Part shown: positions 5,779 to 23,693 of the stretch, one piece after another
How the letters are laid out: each line of letters opens with the position of its first letter
How positions within the stretch are numbered: the first letter of the stretch is position 1
From: Candidatus Gastranaerophilales bacterium
GTDB taxonomy: Bacteria > Cyanobacteriota > Vampirovibrionia > Gastranaerophilales > Gastranaerophilaceae
Direction: 5' to 3'
Assembly (NCBI GenBank): GCA_944322545.1
Contig: CALUPF010000033.1
Coordinates: 62,001-126,000, forward strand
Length of the DNA stretch: 64,000 bases
Program-made: the position numbers and the translations under genes
The notes under the pieces: generated by a model
The model's input: only the letters and a program-made list of their open reading frames with translations
Databases searched by the model: none
What the model was told of the DNA's origin: nothing

Positions 5779-6510
5779 TTATTGAGCCACTGCCTTTTTG
5801 AAAGCTTCTAAATCTTCTTTTGTATCAATGCCAATCGGTTTGCAGTTTACAACTGATGTTATGATTTTCATGCCTGATTGCAATGCTCTTAATTGTTCAA
5901 GACTTTCAGTTTTTTCAAGCATTGTCTGAGGCAATGAAGTCATTTTAAATAAAGCATCTCTTTTATACGCATAAAGTCCTATATGACCGTAGAAAGTTGC
6001 TTCATTGAAGTTTCTTTCATAAGGAATTTTTGAACGTGAAAAATATAAAGCATAGTTATTATTATCAATTACACACTTAACAAGATTAGGATTTTCAACC
6101 TCATCTTTATCCTCGATAATCCTTAACAAAGTAGCTATATCAGCGTCTGTATTTTTCAAAGCTGAAATAATGCCATCTATACTTTCTGGCGTAATCATAG
6201 GCTCATCACCCTGAAGATTTATAATATATTCCATTTCATCATGTCTAGAAGCAACCTCTGCAATTCTATCAGATCCACACTTATGATCAGCTCTTGTCAT
6301 TTCAGCTTTACCACCAAAAGATTTCACGCAATCATATATTGCCTCATGATCAGTAGCCACTATAACTTCATCAGCTTGTTTCACTGCCATAGCCTTTTCA
6401 TAAACCCACTGAATTATAGGTTTGCCTTCAACTTCAATAAGTGGTTTTGCATGCAATCTTGTAGATGCATATCTTGATGGAATTATAATTGCAGTTTTCT
6501 TTTCAGACAT
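5779..6510 (-). CDS. kdsB: 3-deoxy-manno-octulosonate cytidylyltransferase (CMP-KDO synthetase)
   Basis: Activates KDO with CTP for lipopolysaccharide inner-core assembly, implying an outer membrane. The 243-residue protein begins MSEKKTAIIIPSRYASTRLHAKPL. It carries RYASTRLxxKPL near the N-terminus, VATDHEAI, the RxxHxxGSDR-type motif (RADHKCGSDR) and LQGDEP, all diagnostic. The start at 6510 is preferred because the longer in-frame extension to 6606 would overlap ruvB and adds no family sequence. Transcribed divergently from ruvB. Confidence 0.95.
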   Translation of the reverse strand: MSEKKTAIIIPSRYASTRLHAKPLIEVEGKPIIQWVYEKAMAVKQADEVIVATDHEAIYDCVKSFGGKAEMTRADHKCGSDRIAEVASRHDEMEYIINLQGDEPMITPESIDGIISALKNTDADIATLLRIIEDKDEVENPNLVKCVIDNNNYALYFSRSKIPYERNFNEATFYGHIGLYAYKRDALFKMTSLPQTMLEKTESLEQLRALQSGMKIITSVVNCKPIGIDTKEDLEAFKKAVAQ

Positions 6511-6573
6511 AATTTTCTTCTTTCTTTTAACTTCTGATATAATTATACTATCAGACAGGGAGAATTTTTTACA

Positions 6574-7644
6574 GTGGCAATTTTTTCTGACAACGAAGAC
6601 ATTCAAAAACCTTTGATAAAAAAGCCTGAAAAATCAGAGAATCTTGAATCAAAGGAAATTGATTTTGATAAATCTTTTGAAAATAACATAAGACCCAAAA
6701 CTCTTGACGATTATGTCGGTCAATCTGCTTTAAAATCAACTTTGAAAATCTCTATCGAAGCAGCAAAAAAAAGAAACAAACCACTAGACCATTTGCTTTT
6801 ATATGGTCCTCCTGGTCTTGGAAAAACGACTCTAGCGTCTGTTACGGCAAATGAACTGGACACGAAAATAAAAATAACATCAGCTCCAGCACTAGAAAGA
6901 CCTCGAGATATCATTGGAATTTTGATGTCGCTAAAAAATGGTGAAATTTTATTCATCGATGAAATCCATCGTTTAAACAAAGTTGCAGAAGAAATTCTTT
7001 ATCCTGCAATGGAAGACTTTTTCCTTGATATGACAACAGGGAAAGCTCAAACTGTGAAAACACTTCGTGTACCATTACCTAAATTCACATTGATTGGTGC
7101 AACAACAAAAGCAGGCTCACTTTCTGGCCCACTTAGAGATCGTTTTGGAATAATTCACAGATTACAATTTTACACAAAAGAAGAACTATCTTTGGTTGTT
7201 AAAAGAACTGCAAAAATTCTTGAAATTCCTATCACTGACGAAGGCGCATATGCTATTGCAAGTCGTTCAAGAGGCACGCCTAGAATTGCAAACAGACTCG
7301 TTAAAAGAGTTGGAGATTATGCAATTGTAAAATCAAACGGAGAAATCACAGAAGACATTGCAAAAGAAGCACTAGACAGCCTACACATAGATAGTTACGG
7401 ACTAGATACAACTGACAGAGCTTTGATGACACTCATCATCGAAAAATATGACGGAGGTCCTGTCGGAATTGAAACCCTAGCTGCTGCCCTTGGGGAAGAC
7501 GTCAAAACTATTGAAGACGTATATGAGCCATATCTTTTACAAGAAGGTTTCATTCAAAGAACACCTCGAGGCAGAAAAGTTTCACCTGAAGCTTTCAGAC
7601 ATCTTGGTTATAAAATGAACAACCAACAACAATCACTGTTTTAA
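6574..7644 (+). CDS. ruvB: Holliday junction branch-migration helicase RuvB
   Basis: Hexameric AAA+ motor that drives RuvA-bound Holliday junctions. Walker A GPPGLGKT is at residues 78-85, Walker B FIDEIHRL near 128-134, sensor [18 protein letters not shown], then the winged-helix DNA-binding domain ending RTPRGR. 356 residues is usual. The start codon is GTG at 6574 with GGGAG about 11 bases upstream. ruvA and ruvC are not adjacent. The tail converges on the response regulator, overlapping 4 bases. Confidence 0.97.
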
Positions 7645-8966
7645 CCGTTAAATTCTTTTAACAGCTGTTCAATCCAATTGAATAAACCAATCAATTCATA
7701 TGGTTTTGGAAGGTATAAATCTGCGCCAGCGTTCAAAATAAGTTTTTTATCATGAACGATTGTTGAAAGAACTATTTTAATATCTTTGAAATTATCATCT
7801 TTTTTCAATTTTCTGCACAGCTCAATACCTTTTAAAGAATCAGCATCACCAGCATCTAGAACAATTAACGCTGGTTCAGTGTTTTTTATTAAACTCATTG
7901 CTGCATCATAGCTATCTGTTTGAGAAACTTCGTAACCTTGCATTTCTGCTGTCGTTTTTAACAACAAACTCAAAGCATCATCAGGTTCTACAATAACTAT
8001 TTTTTTATTAAAATCTTTATCCAAAATAGAATCTTGTGCACTCAGTTTTGTTCTTTCTACTATGTAAGAAGAGCCTGATTTATATTTCGCCAATTTACAA
8101 GCTGAGAACAATCCGTTTAATGCACTGCTAAAATCCTCATAAGCTTTAAATTCGCTTGAGATTACACCAATACTTGTTGAAACAAGATTGATTCTTTTTC
8201 CTGCGTTATCATCACCATACAAAATTATATAGCCCTGTTTTGCATCTTCAGCGCTATAAAATTTTTCAACGATTGTTCCAAACGCATAAACTAAAAATGA
8301 AGCAACATGTTCAGCTTTCAAAGGATTGGTCAAAACAAGAAACTCACCTTCAGCTAACTCGCCTAAAAAATCATTCTCATCTAGTGCTGAGGTTATTATA
8401 GCTGTGTATGTTTGAAGCATTTTATCAGCGGCCAAATCCCCATATATTTCTTTATAAGAGTCAAAATCGTTTATTTTTACAAGCATCCCTGCCCATTTTT
8501 TTGAAGCATCAGAACATTCTTTTATAGTTCTTTTCAAAACCTTCAAAGAAAATCTAACATCAGGCAGTTGAGTTACATCATCTAACATGTTCTCAAAATG
8601 TCTTCTTAAATGAGCATTTATTCTTGCTTTGAACTCATCTGAATCGATAGGTTCACTTAAAAAATCATCAGCACCAGAGTCCAAAACAGCCAACTTATCT
8701 TTCAAATCATCTGACTTTGAAATTGCAACAATACAAGGTCTCGAAGAGCTGCTCAATAGTCGCAACTTTTTGCAAGCATCAGCCAAAGATGTATCTAAGC
8801 TATCTGAAACAATTATCATATCAGGTTCATAGTCATTTAAATATTCAAGACCTTTTTCAAAACTTTCTGAGATTTTTACACCTGAACCTGTACTTTCAAT
8901 AAGTTTTTTATACTTAGCTGGAAGTTCTTTTCTTTTATCTAAAATCATTACTAATTTTGATAACAT
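7641..8966 (-). CDS. Response regulator REC - degenerate GGDEF - REC
   Basis: 441 residues in three parts. The first receiver (about 1-120) has a serine where the phospho-accepting aspartate is expected (PDMIIVS). The central GGDEF-like domain (about 125-300) keeps the fold phrases [12 protein letters not shown] but has AEGEF in place of GGDEF, so it is probably inactive as a cyclase. The C-terminal receiver has EPDD, the acceptor in ALIVLD and the conserved lysine in LPKP, so it can probably be phosphorylated. The gene abuts the histidine kinase upstream, with its ribosome site GGAGGATAAG inside the kinase's last codons, so the pair is translationally linked. Confidence 0.85.
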
Positions 8967-16707: not shown

Positions 16708-18561
16708 ATGGCGACCGACAAATTAAAAGAAGAAGTTAAACAGACACTATCCATTCTCCCTGAATTAAGCGGTTCATATCAGTTTTTTGATGAGAATGGT
16801 GAAATAATTTATGTTGGAAAAGCCAAAAACCTAAAAAGAAGAGTTTATAGCTATTTTAATAAACACCACGACTCACCAAAACTAAAAATAATGGTGCCAC
16901 AAATAGCAAAAATACAATTCATTGTCACGGACAGTGAAGTAGAAGCGCTAATTTTAGAATCACATCTCATAAAAAAACATAAGCCAAAGTATAATGTACT
17001 TTTAAAAGATGACAAAAAATTCCCATATTTTGTAATTACAGAAGAAGAATATCCAAGAATAATAGTTGCAAGAAAATCAAATAAAAACAAAATCAAAGGC
17101 AAATATTTTGGCCCATATACAGATTCAAGAGCAATGTATGCTACTTTAGACTTGATAAAAAAGCTGTTCCCACTAAAACAATGCAAAAATCCAAAATTCA
17201 AAGATCGTCCTTGTCTGTATTATCACATAGGCAGATGTATGGCACCTTGTCAAAAGCTGATTTCACCTGAAGATTACAAAAAAATACTCAAAAACGTGGA
17301 GCTATTTCTTTCCGGTAAACAAAAAGAACTTGTCACTGCACTGCAAAAAGAAATGGAAAAATTTGCAGCAAAAGAAGAGTTTGAAAAAGCAGCAAGATAT
17401 CGTGACAGCTGGCTGGATGTTCAAAAAACTATGGAACATCAAAAAGTTGTTTTTGAAAACACAAACATAAATCAAGACATCGCATCTGTTTATTTTGAAG
17501 GAAATCTTTTTGTCGTTTCAATGCTGCAAATAAGACAAGGTAGGTTAACAGACAAAAAAGATTTTCAATTCTCTAATACTGATGGAAATCTTTCAAACGA
17601 AGCTGAAGTTTTATCTACATTCTTAAAAGAATACTACACAATGGTGTCAGAGGTTGAAATTCCTTCGACTATTGTACTTCCAAAACTTTTAGAAAAAGAA
17701 GATGTCGAACTTTATTCAAAATGGCTGTCCGATAAAGCTGAAAAAACGATCAAAATAACTGACGCTTCAACAAAACGAAACATTGAACTTTTGAACCTTG
17801 CTCAAAAAAATGCCAAATTCTACTTTGAAAAAGTAAAACTAGAAAAACTCACAGAAATTCAAAGAGATTACAATGAAGTAGGTAGTTATATCCAAGAAAA
17901 ATTAGGACTCTCAAAATTCCCATACATTGTAGAATGTTTTGATATTTCTCATATTCAAGGTACAAACACAGTAGCGTCAATGGTTACGTTTGAAAACGGG
18001 CTCCCTAAAAAATCCAAGTACAGAAAATTCAAGGTTAAATCAACAGAATCAAAACCTGATGATTTCAAATCATTGCAAGAAGTTGTAGAAAGAAGATATT
18101 TCGGCAAATTAACAGAAACGCTTCCAATGCCTGATTTAATAATCATAGATGGAGGTAAAGGACAATTATCATCAGTTATGGAAATTTTTGACGCGCATGA
18201 TTTTCATCCTGACGTCGTATCATTAGCTAAAAGGCTTGAAGAGGTTTTCAAGCCTCATGAATCAAACCCAGTTATATTTCCAATAAACTCACCTGCGCTT
18301 TATTTCTTCCAAAGAATAAGAGATGAAGCCCACAGATTCGCCATTACTTTCCATCGGAAACTAAGAGGACAAAAAGCAACAGAGTCTATTTTAGACGAAA
18401 TCAAGGGTCTTTCTAAACAAAATAAAGAAATACTAATCAAAGAATTCAAAGATATAAAACACATCTCACAAGCAAGCTACGAGCAGCTTTGCGAGAAAGT
18501 CAACAAACGTTGTGCCAAAGCTGTGTACAACTTTTTCAATCCGAATATTCAAATTGATTAG
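16708..18561 (+). CDS. uvrC: Excinuclease ABC subunit C
   Basis: Makes both incisions in nucleotide excision repair. The 617 residues contain the GIY-YIG nuclease (about 20-100: GSYQFFDENGEIIYVGKAKNLKRRV) and four Cys near 167-187 (CKNP...CLYYHIGRCMAPC). A UVR helix pair is near 210-245, the RNase H-like second nuclease follows (ECFDISHIQGTNTVASMV, LIIIDGGKGQL), and a C-terminal helix-hairpin-helix. Probably in one transcript with ade. Convergent with the spermidine-synthase-like gene, overlapping 4 bases. Confidence 0.97.
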   Translation: MATDKLKEEVKQTLSILPELSGSYQFFDENGEIIYVGKAKNLKRRVYSYFNKHHDSPKLKIMVPQIAKIQFIVTDSEVEALILESHLIKKHKPKYNVLLKDDKKFPYFVITEEEYPRIIVARKSNKNKIKGKYFGPYTDSRAMYATLDLIKKLFPLKQCKNPKFKDRPCLYYHIGRCMAPCQKLISPEDYKKILKNVELFLSGKQKELVTALQKEMEKFAAKEEFEKAARYRDSWLDVQKTMEHQKVVFENTNINQDIASVYFEGNLFVVSMLQIRQGRLTDKKDFQFSNTDGNLSNEAEVLSTFLKEYYTMVSEVEIPSTIVLPKLLEKEDVELYSKWLSDKAEKTIKITDASTKRNIELLNLAQKNAKFYFEKVKLEKLTEIQRDYNEVGSYIQEKLGLSKFPYIVECFDISHIQGTNTVASMVTFENGLPKKSKYRKFKVKSTESKPDDFKSLQEVVERRYFGKLTETLPMPDLIIIDGGKGQLSSVMEIFDAHDFHPDVVSLAKRLEEVFKPHESNPVIFPINSPALYFFQRIRDEAHRFAITFHRKLRGQKATESILDEIKGLSKQNKEILIKEFKDIKHISQASYEQLCEKVNKRCAKAVYNFFNPNIQID

Positions 18562-20099
18562 TTCCAATATCTCCAGCCTTGCAAATAGTAGTCTAATATT
18601 GCAGGCTTATCTAATGTTGAATATTTGATATTGTCTCTTATGATGTCTTTTTCAATAACAAATGCTTTTTTGAAAGTTTCTTTATCTAAATATTTAGTTG
18701 GAACAGCCAATTTAAATTTATCTAAATCATATTTAACGTTAGAAGCCATAACAAAGCCCCAGTCACCAAAAGACGGTACATAAACATGATAAGGATATGT
18801 ATATCTAAATCCAGCTGCTTTCAATGTTTCATTCACACACCAGTATGCTTCTGATGAAAAATAAGGACTTGTTGACTGTGAAACTAACAAACCATCTTTA
18901 GAAAGTTTTTTTCTAACAACTTTATAAAACTCTCTGCTATATAATCTAGCCAAAGAAGAATTATTCGGGTCAGGTAAATCAACTATTATCACATCAAAAA
19001 ATTCGTTAGAATTTTCAACATATTTAAACGCATCAGAATTAACAATTTTCACTTTAGGATTAAAAAAGCTGCCTTGATTTAGCTCTTTAACTATTCTGTT
19101 ATATTTAGCAAGGTCTGTCATATCCTTGTCTAAATCAACAACAGTAATATTTTTAACATCTTTGTATTTTAAAAGTTCTCTTGCAGCAAGTCCGTCACCA
19201 CCGCCTAGGACTAGAATATTTTCTTTATGCTTAGCTAATGACATAGGTACGTGAATAAGCAACTCATGGTATCTATGCTCATCAACTGAAGAAAACTGAA
19301 CATTACCGTCTATAAAAAGTCTTATGTCTTCTTTATTTTGAGTCATAACCAATTTTTGATACTTTGTTTGTTTTGAAAAAATCACTCTGTCATCAAAAAT
19401 ATTGTTTTCCCAATATTTCATAAGCCCTTTTGAGCAAACAAAAATACCAATTAATAAAAACAAAATCAAAACAGCTGAAGTTCTAAGCTTAGCACGTCTT
19501 TTAAAAGTAATCTTATCTTTAAACCAATAAAAATTAATTATACCAACTACAAGATTCAAAAGCCCAGCAAAAACAGAACTTTCAAAAATGCCCATCAAAG
19601 GCAAAAGTAAAAACGGAAACGCTAATGTAGCAATAAATGCACCTAAATAATCTAATGACAATACGTTTGAGATGTTGTTTCTCAAATCATAATACTGTTC
19701 CATAATTCTTGTTAATAAAGGAATTTCAAGACCAATCAGTGTTCCAATTGCCATAATCAAAATAAACATGACAGGATAATAAATCGGCTCACACATATAT
19801 GAAAAATACAAAATAGGCACACATAAACCACCAACTATGGCCAAAATAATTTCTATTAATATAAACCAATAGATTAAATTGCTTTTAACAAGCCTAGAAA
19901 CTAACGTACCAAGCCCCATAGCTGTCATTGTGAGCCCAATTACAAGAGAAAACTGTTTTATGCTATCTCCTAAAAAATAAGAAGACACACTTCCTATCAA
20001 AAGCTCATAAATAATCGTGCAAAAACCTACGACAAAAACTGACAACAAAAGAATAACAGACTCTTTTGTTGTCAAAACATGTTTTTTATTTTCCACCAC
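18558..20099 (-). CDS. Membrane-anchored spermidine-synthase-like aminopropyltransferase
   Basis: 513 residues. The first about 215 form roughly seven membrane helices. A class I methyltransferase-fold aminopropyltransferase domain follows: YQKLVMTQ, DGNVQFSSVDEHRYHE, LVLGGGDGLAARE, VDLDKDM and VIIVDLPDP. The DEHRYHE and GGGDG motifs are those of SpeE-like enzymes; the usual catalytic Asp region reads DLPDP. Last gene of the PspA operon. Membrane-bound SpeE-like proteins recur beside PspA/DUF350 genes in many bacteria, but whether they make spermidine or modify something else is unproven. Start GTG, overlapping the preceding gene by 14 bases. Confidence 0.85.
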   Translation of the reverse strand: MVENKKHVLTTKESVILLLSVFVVGFCTIIYELLIGSVSSYFLGDSIKQFSLVIGLTMTAMGLGTLVSRLVKSNLIYWFILIEIILAIVGGLCVPILYFSYMCEPIYYPVMFILIMAIGTLIGLEIPLLTRIMEQYYDLRNNISNVLSLDYLGAFIATLAFPFLLLPLMGIFESSVFAGLLNLVVGIINFYWFKDKITFKRRAKLRTSAVLILFLLIGIFVCSKGLMKYWENNIFDDRVIFSKQTKYQKLVMTQNKEDIRLFIDGNVQFSSVDEHRYHELLIHVPMSLAKHKENILVLGGGDGLAARELLKYKDVKNITVVDLDKDMTDLAKYNRIVKELNQGSFFNPKVKIVNSDAFKYVENSNEFFDVIIVDLPDPNNSSLARLYSREFYKVVRKKLSKDGLLVSQSTSPYFSSEAYWCVNETLKAAGFRYTYPYHVYVPSFGDWGFVMASNVKYDLDKFKLAVPTKYLDKETFKKAFVIEKDIIRDNIKYSTLDKPAILDYYLQGWRYWN

Positions 20100-20343
20100 T
20101 CAAACCTCTTTGAGAAAATCTATTTCCATTTACGCTATTTTCTCTGTTAGAAGGATAATAACTTTCATCATAATTTCTGATATACCAAAAAGAATGATAA
20201 TGATGATGATGATATCCTCTATAACCAGGATAGCCATATCCTTTATAAGCCACATTAAAACACGCAAAATAAATAATTGCCAAAACAATAATAAGACATA
20301 TATAAATCAAAAACTCAAAAAATTTACCGTTATTAATCATCAC
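20086..20343 (-). CDS. Small Tyr/Gly/His-rich single-pass membrane protein
   Basis: 85 residues: one helix (about 8-32), then YKGYGYPGYRGYHHHHYHSF, a tyrosine/histidine-rich stretch, and a polar tail. It overlaps the upstream gene by 11 bases and the downstream speE-like gene by 14, so it is locked into the operon. Small proteins of similar placement (for example DUF4247) occur in other PspA-DUF350 clusters; I cannot assign it to that family from sequence alone. The histidine run might bind metal. Confidence 0.75.
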   Translation of the reverse strand: MMINNGKFFEFLIYICLIIVLAIIYFACFNVAYKGYGYPGYRGYHHHHYHSFWYIRNYDESYYPSNRENSVNGNRFSQRGLSGGK

Positions 20344-20935
20344 TCATCTCTTCTATCTTTTCATTTATAACAGCCAACTTTTCACAAACCCATTGTTTGT
20401 TTAACAAGAAGAATATTATCATTGCGATAAGTAAAAATAGTGAACCAAATTGAGAATGTGCAACATAGCTGCCTTTCACAAGCTGAATAGTTATATCAAT
20501 ATTGCGCATATTTTTTTCTTCAGTATTAAACTGGATATAATAAGTACCTTTTTCTTTAAAGGTCAAATATGCAGTCATTTTTCTTTCTGACTCTGACCAA
20601 TAACCCTCAGAATCATAACCTGATTCGTGCCAAAGATCTTTTCCAAATTCATATAAGGTATCTTTGTCTTTATCTAAAACTTCACCTGAAAGATATGTAG
20701 ATGTATTACTTCCTCCAAAGTTTGCAATAATCTTATATATCTTAGGTTGTTTGTCTATTTTAATTGGGCCATAAGTCATACCTTCTCTGATTTCATAATC
20801 AGTTCTTCCAACTGAAGTTGAAGCCTGAAGATTCAATGATGTAATAAAACATATTATTGAAAATATAACAACTATCAAAAGAAGATTGTTATAAAAAAGT
20901 TTATCTCTTAATTTTTGTTGAGGTCTGATTAACAT
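20333..20935 (-). CDS. Two-helix membrane protein with extracytoplasmic domain, PspA operon
   Basis: 200 residues. Helix near 15-38, an outside domain of about 120 residues (YEIREGMTYGPIKIDK, YLSGEVLDKDKDTLYEFG, AYLTFKEKGTYYIQF) that looks like a beta-sandwich, a second helix near 163-180, and a charged cytoplasmic tail. Not recognised. Its context suggests it senses or carries load for the envelope-stress system; similar two-helix proteins sit with DUF4178/DUF350 genes elsewhere. Confidence 0.7.
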   Translation of the reverse strand: MLIRPQQKLRDKLFYNNLLLIVVIFSIICFITSLNLQASTSVGRTDYEIREGMTYGPIKIDKQPKIYKIIANFGGSNTSTYLSGEVLDKDKDTLYEFGKDLWHESGYDSEGYWSESERKMTAYLTFKEKGTYYIQFNTEEKNMRNIDITIQLVKGSYVAHSQFGSLFLLIAMIIFFLLNKQWVCEKLAVINEKIEEMSDD

Positions 20936-20945
20936 AAATCTTTCC

Positions 20946-21818
20946 TTAAATTGCTACCGTAAAATCGACCATAAAAAATACCAATAAAGCAAAACATGTG
21001 ATGCATGTGAATTCAATTAATCCAGCTGCAACGTTATTGTTTTTCAACTCTTTATTGATATCAATTGCTTTTACAATAAAGTTTCCTAAAACATATCTCA
21101 CTGTTGGCAACATCAATAAAATTGCAGAAAGATCAACAAAATAAGTAATCAAACTATTTTTCCAACCATCGACATCACCTAAAGTCGCTTTCATCAAAAT
21201 AATACCAATAGCAATGATATTCCCTGCTAAAGCAATGCCTACAGCATAATTATCATTTTCTAATTCATCGTGCACAGAATATGGTGTAATCAAATCATAA
21301 ATTCGTAAAAATACGAACATAAAACATACACTTAAAACATAATAGAAAATCGAAGACAAAATACCACCAACATCACCATTTACGCAAGCAGCAATGATAA
21401 GACCATGAGCAACATAAAAGCCAAAATACACTGCAGCTGTACCTATATTTTTGTCCTGCAATAGTTCTTTAGCATTATCAAAACGATTAAGCATAATCTT
21501 TCTTGTGACAAACCCTGAAGTGGTCATCAAAATCACACCGACAATAGCATATGCAACGTACATTGCTAAATCTAGTCTGAATGTTTTTGAAGAAGGTCCA
21601 ACAAAAGCACCAACGAGAATAAATGCCATACCAATAATATAGCCACAAAAAGCTATTATAGCCGTATAATTGCAATTTTTAATCTCTTTTTCCGGTTGAA
21701 AAATAGAAAACTTGTCAAACATAAACTTAGACAAAAAAAGCATTATACAAGATATAGAAAGGTAAATCACACTTTGAACAATCGGATTGTTACCAACAGC
21801 TGATAAACTTATGCTCAT
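20946..21818 (-). CDS. Tandem DUF350 (YjfL-type) membrane protein
   Basis: 290 residues with about eight predicted helices, twice the usual DUF350 length. The characteristic phrase (short acidic loop, K/D-N-x-A, then a Gly-rich helix) occurs four times: IKNCNYTAIIAFCGYIIG, LQDKNIGTAAVYFGFYV, LENDNYAVGIALAGNIIA and LKNNNVAAGLIEF. It is therefore two fused DUF350 units. Function of DUF350 is not established; genes recur with PspA homologs (for example yjfJ-yjfL). AGGAG ribosome site; 8 bases from the DUF4178 gene. Confidence 0.85.
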   Translation of the reverse strand: MSISLSAVGNNPIVQSVIYLSISCIMLFLSKFMFDKFSIFQPEKEIKNCNYTAIIAFCGYIIGMAFILVGAFVGPSSKTFRLDLAMYVAYAIVGVILMTTSGFVTRKIMLNRFDNAKELLQDKNIGTAAVYFGFYVAHGLIIAACVNGDVGGILSSIFYYVLSVCFMFVFLRIYDLITPYSVHDELENDNYAVGIALAGNIIAIGIILMKATLGDVDGWKNSLITYFVDLSAILLMLPTVRYVLGNFIVKAIDINKELKNNNVAAGLIEFTCITCFALLVFFMVDFTVAI

Positions 21819-21826
21819 ATATACTC

Positions 21827-22489
21827 CTATTCTTCTTTATTTCTTAAAACAGTAATTTGAGATGGACGCATTATCTGTGAAACAAATACTTCATAATCAC
21901 TTTCACCCCATTTTTCAACACTTAAAGATTTATTTCCTTGTACAAAATCCCAGTAATACAATTTTTCAGCTTTTTCACTATCACAAAATCTGTAAAATAT
22001 AGCATCACCAGAATCTTCATAATGATAACCACAAACATTGCCACTTTCTTCATCGTCAATGACATCAAGCTGTGAAGGAGTCAAACCAATGTCTGATAGT
22101 TTCTTTTTCTCTAAAACAACACTTACTTTTGTATCATCATCGTCTTCGACTTCAACCCAAACTTTTTCATCACTTCCATCATCACATTCGAGCTCAAACC
22201 AAGAGAAATCACCTTCTTGATATAAGTGTTTAGCAATAACTTTTAAAGTCATATCTTTATAATCTTTGCCAACACCTCTTAACTCGAACACGCCTCCTCT
22301 TTCTAAGTTAACAACGTGAGGAGCCTGTTCAGGAACTTTGTTTAAATTTTCTTTTATAGACTTATTTCTCATTATGATTGCATATGCAACAACTGCACCA
22401 ATCACAAGAAATATCACATTCATACCAATTGTTGGTATAAGAATTATCACAAATATGGCTAAGATGATTAACACTATTGCTAACTGCAT
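21827..22489 (-). CDS. DUF4178-domain membrane protein
   Basis: 220 residues. Two hydrophobic segments near 3-40, then a DUF4178-like domain (FELRGVGKDYKDMTLKVIAK, FSWFELECDDGSDEKVWVEVE, then WGESDYEVF with a C-terminal core). The domain is known mainly by its association with PspA, DUF350 and spermidine-synthase genes, and has no assigned reaction. AGGAG 6 bases before the ATG. Confidence 0.8.
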   Translation of the reverse strand: MQLAIVLIILAIFVIILIPTIGMNVIFLVIGAVVAYAIIMRNKSIKENLNKVPEQAPHVVNLERGGVFELRGVGKDYKDMTLKVIAKHLYQEGDFSWFELECDDGSDEKVWVEVEDDDDTKVSVVLEKKKLSDIGLTPSQLDVIDDEESGNVCGYHYEDSGDAIFYRFCDSEKAEKLYYWDFVQGNKSLSVEKWGESDYEVFVSQIMRPSQITVLRNKEE

Positions 22490-22513: not shown

Positions 22514-23290
22514 TTACTCATTTTCTAACTCATTTTTTTGTTCAGCTAGATTGTCTTGCTCAACATTCAATGACTCAGCAGATTTATCTGTAAGCATTTT
22601 AGCTTTTAACTCAGCCAAAGAAGCTTGCACATCAGGAGATGCACTAGTACCAATAGCAGCATTAATTTCCTTATCAATATCAGTTTCAATACTCTCCATT
22701 GATCCATAAGCTTCAGCTAAAGCCTCTTCCTCGTTAATTTTGTTTTTCATATCTTCTAACATACCTGCTGTGCTATCCGAACTCATAGAAACAAGCTGTT
22801 GGTTGATTTTTTTAGAAGAAACAGCAACCGTATGACGAGCTTTTAATGTTTTTAATTGGTTTTCCCATTTTTTAATTTGTTCTTTCAAGTTAGCAATTTT
22901 GTTTTCAAATTGCTTAATCATCATATTGTATTTTTCTAAAGAGCTTTTTAACTGAGCAGCATCTTGCAAAGCTTCTTGTTTTTTTGCCAAAGCTTCAGAT
23001 GCTAATCTGTCAGCCTCTGCGGGGTCCAAAGTACCTGCTTGAGCATTTTTCAAAAGAGCCATTGCTTTATTTTCATAATCTTGAGCAATTTGTTTCTTTT
23101 CTTCTAACTCACGTTTTGTTGAAATGGCAATAGCTTTGACTTCAGCTAACCCCTTCAAACTATTATCAAAATCTGTTTTTAAATCTCTAATTCCTTGTTC
23201 AGCTAGTTTTATAGGATCTTCGAATCTTGATACGATTGAATGCAATGTTGCTTGTATAACTTTGAACAATCTTTCTAATAAACCGGCCAT
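22514..23290 (-). CDS. pspA: PspA/IM30/Vipp1-family membrane remodelling protein
   Basis: 258 residues, almost wholly helical. N-terminal amphipathic helix MAGLLERLFKVIQATLHSIV, then EDPIKLAEQGIRDLKTD (the family signature) and long coiled coils to about 215. A C-terminal extension makes it Vipp1 length rather than the about 220 of classic PspA. PspA/Vipp1 proteins are ESCRT-III-like and assemble on stressed inner membranes. It sits directly behind the J-domain gene, 22 bases away, with AGGAG. Confidence 0.93.
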   Translation of the reverse strand: MAGLLERLFKVIQATLHSIVSRFEDPIKLAEQGIRDLKTDFDNSLKGLAEVKAIAISTKRELEEKKQIAQDYENKAMALLKNAQAGTLDPAEADRLASEALAKKQEALQDAAQLKSSLEKYNMMIKQFENKIANLKEQIKKWENQLKTLKARHTVAVSSKKINQQLVSMSSDSTAGMLEDMKNKINEEEALAEAYGSMESIETDIDKEINAAIGTSASPDVQASLAELKAKMLTDKSAESLNVEQDNLAEQKNELENE

Positions 23291-23312: not shown

Positions 23313-23693
23313 TTACTTACTATATTTCTCTTCAAAATAATTATATGCGAGGTTCAGTTTTTTCACAACTTCCTGAGCAATCGCAAGTTTTTTTTCATTT
23401 CCATAAAATTTATCAGGATGATATTTTTTTAAAAGTCTTTTATATGATGCTTTTATTTCATCAAAACCAGCACCATAAGGCAATTCTAAATTTGCGTAAT
23501 ATTCTTGTTCTAAAGAATTCCCATCAGCGCCTTTATTAACTGCTTTTTTTACACGATCATCGAATTCAATATCTTCAAAATCGGGACGAAAATTATCAAA
23601 ATTAACTTCAGGCCCAAAATCATTTTCATATACAGATTCTTTGGAATTAATATTGCTTCTTACGATATTTTTTATTCTTTTAAATAAACTCAA
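23313..23693 (-). CDS. J-domain protein with Vipp1/PspA-like N-terminal amphipathic helix
   Basis: 126 residues. The N-terminus MSLFKRIKNIVRSNINS closely resembles the membrane-binding helix that starts Vipp1/PspA proteins. A polar acidic linker follows to about 60, then a J domain (about 65-126: YANLELPYGAGFDEIKASYKRLLKKYHPDKF) with HPD at 92-94. A membrane-directed Hsp70 co-chaperone for the adjacent PspA is the natural inference; in Chlamydomonas, J-protein CDJ2 delivers VIPP1 to HSP70B. TTG start at 23693. First gene of the operon. Confidence 0.82.
   Translation of the reverse strand: MSLFKRIKNIVRSNINSKESVYENDFGPEVNFDNFRPDFEDIEFDDRVKKAVNKGADGNSLEQEYYANLELPYGAGFDEIKASYKRLLKKYHPDKFYGNEKKLAIAQEVVKKLNLAYNYFEEKYSK

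Follow-up and report, generated by a model that had tools for sequence, protein, structure and literature searches.

Why would a small J-domain protein encoded directly before pspA begin with what looks like the membrane-binding helix of PspA itself? The question is raised by a 64,000-nucleotide stretch of a Candidatus Gastranaerophilales bacterium genome (contig CALUPF010000033.1, positions 62,001 to 126,000; hereafter the window), in which such a gene lies on the minus strand at 23313..23693. We find that the likeness to helix alpha0 of PspA/Vipp1 and the linkage to pspA are properties of a whole J-protein family, and propose that the protein may bring DnaK to PspA-coated membrane.

The J-domain protein and its N-terminal helix

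The gene and the parts of its product, in window coordinates, are:

23313..23693, minus strand: J-domain protein gene, an open reading frame (ORF) of 126 aa with a TTG start at 23693; Pfam DnaJ
23640..23693, minus strand: putative PspA/Vipp1 alpha0-like amphipathic helix, codons 1–18, MSLFKRIKNIVRSNINSK; PDB search, position-specific scoring matrix (PSSM), AlphaFold2 (AF2)
23523..23639, minus strand: variable linker, codons 19–57, predicted to be disordered; AF2 predicted local distance difference test (pLDDT) <50 for residues 12–56
23316..23522, minus strand: C-terminal J domain, codons 58–126; Pfam, AF2 pLDDT about 80 for residues 58–125
23412..23420, minus strand: His-Pro-Asp (HPD) motif, His92-Pro93-Asp94; invariant in family alignment A1

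The translation of 23693..23313 (minus strand) opens MSLFKRIKNIVRSNINS, the same N-terminus being also given as MSLFKRIKNIVRSNINSKESVYENDFG. The start codon is TTG in the window and TTG, GTG or ATG in relatives and, since these fall at the identical codon, the N-terminus is well supported. The original prediction, made from the sequence alone, had placed a J domain with an intact HPD in the C-terminal part of the protein, and this is borne out. The only Pfam match in the 126 residues is DnaJ (PF00226, residues 64–121, E-value 3.8e-9, over the cut-off), the segment K89 K90 Y91 H92 P93 D94 (KKYHPD) is invariant across the family in alignment A1, and the modelled J domain aligns with that of DnaK-bound DnaJ (5nro_B; VIA-align Z 8.0, root-mean-square deviation 2.7, 61 residues), in rows that span mostly residues 50–126 and barely cover the helix and linker. 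The linker is unconserved and length-variable in the same alignment, and AF2 places a helix at residues 4–15 with low confidence (pLDDT about 50). Pfam detects no G/F, zinc-finger or C-terminal beta-domains in the protein, which is hence not of class A or B; none of the NCBIfam DnaJ equivalogs reaches its cut-off, and NCBIfam as a whole gives the protein no name, every score lying far below cut-off. By its domain content it is classed as a class C J-domain protein, for which stimulation of the Hsp70 ATPase is a predicted activity. PF04012 (PspA_IM30), the alpha1–alpha5 coiled coil, has no Pfam match in the J protein, which is not itself a PspA. The host genome encodes a single DnaK (614 aa) and five J-domain genes.

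The likeness of the first 17 or so residues to the helix that starts Vipp1/PspA, also proposed by the original prediction, holds up at the level of the family. When residues 1–25 were searched against the PDB (177,635 sequences), the top four matches were Vipp1/PspA chains, aligned in register from 1–17 to 1–17 (MGLFDRIKRVVSSNLND), and a homologue from Cytophagales, searched likewise with its N-terminus (MFDRLFNILKANLNSALDKEDV...), matched Synechocystis Vipp1 alone, at residues 2–29. A hidden Markov model (HMM) of Gastranaerophilaceae J N-termini run against all ORFs had PspA N-termini among its first non-J matches (7.6 and 6.2 bits, E-values 1.5–16), a result unconvincing alone, in place of which we used a PSSM built from 28 non-cognate PspA/Vipp1 alpha0 segments and a background of 848 unrelated N-termini. 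On this scale the window protein scores 20.4 and the family median is 17.1, against a background maximum of 10.9, and 37 of the 43 family N-termini lie above every background N-terminus. The register is set by a conserved basic position, usually Arg, which nearly all members fit; the divergent L021 clearly departs from it. The window score exceeds that of composition-preserving shuffles (p=0.0005) and, moreover, of shuffles that keep the pattern of hydrophobic, basic and polar residues (p=0.009; mean z 2.1 over the family); therefore, the likeness goes beyond mere amphipathicity. Amphipathic the helix nevertheless is in most homologues: the mean hydrophobic moment is 0.47 in the J family, 0.52 in PspA alpha0 and 0.20 in the background, with 36 of 43 homologues above the 95th percentile of the latter. 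For the window helix alone the moment is moderate (muH 0.42) and does not stand out significantly from shuffles of the same sequence (p=0.10), whereas the family-wide result is significant. Neither of the two outcomes that the original prediction named as refuting it, homologues devoid of a PspA-like N-terminal signal or a helix that is mostly not amphipathic among them, was observed. As far as sequence goes, the N-terminus of this J family is thus a PspA/Vipp1 alpha0-type helix, and the likeness is beyond chance as well as beyond amphipathicity.

Linkage of the J gene to pspA

The gene that follows was likewise expected to encode PspA/Vipp1, and it does. Among the sampled Gastranaerophilales, where J and PspA are same-strand neighbours, all 14 genomes with the J gene have PspA and 16 genomes have PspA over the cut-off; the co-occurrence gives a Fisher p of 3e-16 on the assumption that 100 genomes have neither gene, a figure below the number listed or implied in the genome survey. 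The pair, for which a survey of this order had been suggested, is conserved beyond it. In Cytophagales, PspA lies immediately downstream of J on the same strand in 19 of the 30 best loci, a Vipp1-like PspA adjoins divergently in 2 more (L182 and L213, the latter with J at 6469-6852, minus, and PspA at 7241-7924, plus), and two further genomes, G326 and G352, have PspA downstream of J. In the phylum of Chitinivibrionales, PspA stands directly before J (G576, G612); in G612 (L216:941-2555, minus strand) three genes run the same way, CesT_Tir_1, PspA and then J, with J behind pspA and not ahead of it. The association is seen repeatedly, in three lineages that differ in gene order. The Cytophagales survey profile included the N-terminus, which biases it toward J proteins alike in that region, and hence a separate linkage control was made with 59 J loci collected through their similarity to the window protein alone, one of the six search patterns lying in the N-terminus. 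Of the alpha0-type J loci, 10 of 13 are within 1 kb of pspA, compared with 0 of 46 other J loci (Fisher 4.6e-9; the loci are phylogenetically non-independent, so that p-values are overstated).

Several findings weigh against the view that the family is an alpha0-tipped J protein dedicated to PspA. The E-values of the four PDB matches are individually weak (0.73–1.2), because the segment is short, although their ranking and register are specific; the L013 N-terminus finds zero matches in the same search; and in G171 (L021/L129) the J-PspA pair is kept while the J N-terminus, MRDLKDMLKGAVDKIKS, carries no alpha0 signal. The J helix is closer to non-cognate Vipp1-type alpha0 (mean score 23.2) than to that of its own neighbour PspA (16.3). 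Two of the sampled Gastranaerophilales, G201 and G279, have PspA with no J gene found, and alpha0-J genes also occur away from pspA, either solitary with none nearby (L043, L051, L058) or with none within the stretch examined (L206-L211, L217).

The first two of these findings, E-values near 1 for 17-residue single sequences and the failure of L013, are what one would expect if a short basic N-terminus resembled alpha0 by chance and the gene neighbour were accidental. For the family this is refuted by the PSSM comparison with the background together with the linkage control, and with the pairing recurring in several lineages we regard coincidence as highly improbable. A recent partial duplication, in which the 5' end of pspA was copied onto the J gene and left a helix with no special role, would suit the physical adjacency of the two genes. 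It was rejected, since the J helix is on average closer to Vipp1-type alpha0 from foreign genomes than to that of its neighbour; moreover, distant phyla keep the helix in the same register, and J genes away from pspA carry it too, so that such an origin is scarcely credible.

Two further observations concern other J genes. A J gene of G663 (L231:1498-1938, minus strand), from a different family within the same phylum, starts MGDIFKRLVNLAKAEISHI, which is alpha0-like, and no pspA lies within the 1.5 kb examined. A distinct Cytophagales J subfamily (L046, L048, L053, L054, L068, L077, L090) has a common N-terminus, MITKMLLEIFQAIAEDPT..., and a long segment preceding the J domain; it is not alpha0-like and is not near pspA in the loci examined.

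The polyamine operon and the CesT/Tir position

Downstream of the J gene, on the same strand, follow:

22514..23290, minus strand: pspA (PspA/IM30 family), separated from the J gene by 22 bp; PF04012 PspA_IM30, 1.1e-40
21827..22489, minus strand: DUF4178 protein; PF13785, 1e-13
20946..21818, minus strand: DUF350 (YjfL-family) membrane protein; PF03994, 1.7e-47
20333..20935, minus strand: 200-aa conserved operon protein, position kept in relatives; no Pfam family over cut-off
20086..20343, minus strand: 85-aa conserved small operon protein, position kept in relatives; no Pfam match
18558..20099, minus strand: polyamine aminopropyltransferase (spermine/spermidine synthase) whose N-terminal region is hydrophobic; PF01564, 3.3e-43

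The gene order is accordingly J, pspA, DUF4178, DUF350, the 200-aa gene, the 85-aa gene and the membrane spermidine synthase, which also matches NCBIfam PRK03612 over its cut-off (2.7e-188). Pfam, NCBIfam and the layout in relatives all place in the window the PspA, DUF4178, DUF350 and transmembrane (TM)-spermine synthase gene set, and its PspA is of the polyamine-operon type, not a thylakoid Vipp1. A promoter and terminator scan of the window gave counts no higher than chance, and the operon structure is therefore read from spacing and conservation alone. Just inside the start of the synthase gene, at 20075-20039 (minus strand), a 16-bp stem with a T-rich tail could be attenuator-like or a coding palindrome, the scan count being at chance.

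In known PspA-polyamine operons a CesT/Tir-like chaperone is encoded beside pspA, according to Ravi et al. (2024, PMC11237479). No CesT/Tir protein is encoded adjacent to pspA in the window, where the J gene occupies that position instead. In G201, of the same family, CesT_Tir_1 (PF22550, 5e-45; L125:3627-4022, plus strand) sits exactly in the slot upstream of pspA, without J, and in G199 (L042/L130) J, CesT_Tir_1 and PspA are consecutive. CesT/Tir and J may be alternative or joint partners of PspA. The full seven-gene cassette was also seen on a contig titled 'uncultured Clostridia' (L041), with a J protein about 65% identical to that of the window; this is probably a binning or naming error, or a horizontal transfer.

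The membrane proteins of the operon bear on a further explanation, in which the J protein is a general inner-membrane anchor that directs DnaK to membrane-protein clients of the same stress regulon (e.g. DUF350, the synthase or damaged proteins), PspA being co-expressed and not a client. The J genes that stand alone, without pspA, are in keeping with this. The pairing, however, is specific to pspA: G141 and G266 carry J-pspA as a separate two-gene unit, free of polyamine genes in L131, in addition to a J-less polyamine operon with its own pspA (L127, L128, same genomes). Therefore, J goes with pspA and not with the polyamine genes, and we consider the general anchor rather unlikely.

A proposed Hsp70 route to PspA coats and its relation to known systems

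J-proteins act as targeting factors for Hsp70, which their J domains recruit and trigger (PMC8215388). With a PspA-type alpha0 and a J domain combined in one protein, and its gene in an operon with pspA, the simplest meaning is delivery of DnaK to PspA-coated membrane, a recruitment that the original prediction had likewise suggested. On balance we favour, with some reserve, a class C J-protein dedicated to PspA, whose alpha0 would bring the J domain, and hence DnaK, to the coat for remodelling. In such a scheme, the alpha0-like helix would bind the same negatively charged or stressed inner-membrane surface as PspA coats, and the flexible linker would keep the J domain close to the PspA polymer. 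The J domain would then recruit DnaK and stimulate its ATPase on PspA, so that Hsp70 might remodel or disassemble the ESCRT-III-like coat and recycle its subunits. The role would be equivalent to that of Vps4 for eukaryotic ESCRT-III and of HSP70B-CDJ2 for algal VIPP1.

The helix could instead act as a PspA mimic, inserting among the alpha0 helices of PspA by co-assembly; the polymer itself would then hold J, and DnaK would be supplied from within it. An alpha0 likeness that exceeds amphipathicity in the class-preserving shuffles fits this, as does a gene linkage that suits a direct physical partner. Yet the J helix fits non-cognate Vipp1-type alpha0 better than that of its own PspA, and according to the review PMC13051332 the alpha0 helix of either PspA or Vipp1 binds lipid even in isolation, which makes co-assembly an unlikely arrangement. 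The dedicated J-protein that reaches the coat through the membrane is directly testable as a bacterial Hsp70-PspA system, the alpha0-tipped J beside pspA and its partners being small, expressible proteins. It would also mean that a membrane helix of the ESCRT-III type serves a different protein as its targeting module, and the recurrence of the pair in distant bacteria suggests a dedicated bacterial route of Hsp70 to PspA-type (ESCRT-III-like) coats. Members of the alpha0-tipped J family come from Cyanobacteriota, from Cytophagales and from the phylum of Chitinivibrionales, and single candidates were seen in other groups. As a more tentative extension, which we hold possible but would not yet favour, PspA-type ESCRT-III polymers that have no AAA+ ATPase might find in this family their missing factor for ATP-dependent recycling, with Hsp70 as the counterpart of Vps4, interchangeable with CesT/Tir or working alongside it.

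Among known systems, DjlA, DjlB and DjlC of E. coli are also J-proteins at the inner membrane, but the presumed anchor of the window protein is an N-terminal PspA-type amphipathic helix, and the DjlA NCBIfam model scores 27 on it against a cut-off of 162. With PspA/Vipp1 alpha0 it shares an in-register similarity over about 17–18 residues, the conserved Arg and amphipathicity; unlike PspA/Vipp1, it lacks alpha1 onward and the coiled coil, the alpha0-like helix being joined to a J domain. The CesT/Tir-PspA dyad operons (Ravi et al. 2024, PMC11237479) have the same set of PspA, DUF4178, DUF350, small genes and TM-spermine synthase and likewise place a chaperone-like gene next to pspA, but here that slot holds J, or J plus CesT/Tir in G199. 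In its main text this 2024 phage-shock-protein (PSP) survey makes no mention of DnaJ or the J-domain, the literature covered being open-licence papers.

The closest parallel is the CDJ2-HSP70B-VIPP1 system of the Chlamydomonas chloroplast (CDJ2 belonging to the DJC73 clade), in which a dedicated J-protein links Hsp70 to a PspA/Vipp1 ESCRT-III-like polymer; the recruitment of Hsp70 to VIPP1 by a separate algal J-protein, cited in the original prediction, is indeed documented (PMC13051332, PMC3720927). Gene linkage suggests that the window protein may be CDJ2-like in binding PspA and recruiting Hsp70. CDJ2, however, is a plastid protein of eukaryotes for which, as PMC3720927 states, cyanobacteria have no homologue, whereas the J protein of the window is bacterial, about 110–165 aa long in its family, pspA-linked and alpha0-tipped; the passages on CDJ2 consulted here do not mention an alpha0-like helix. 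A J-protein serving the PspA/Vipp1 polymer is thus known from algae, and what is new here is one that is bacterial and operon-linked and has a membrane helix of the presumed client's type as its putative address tag.
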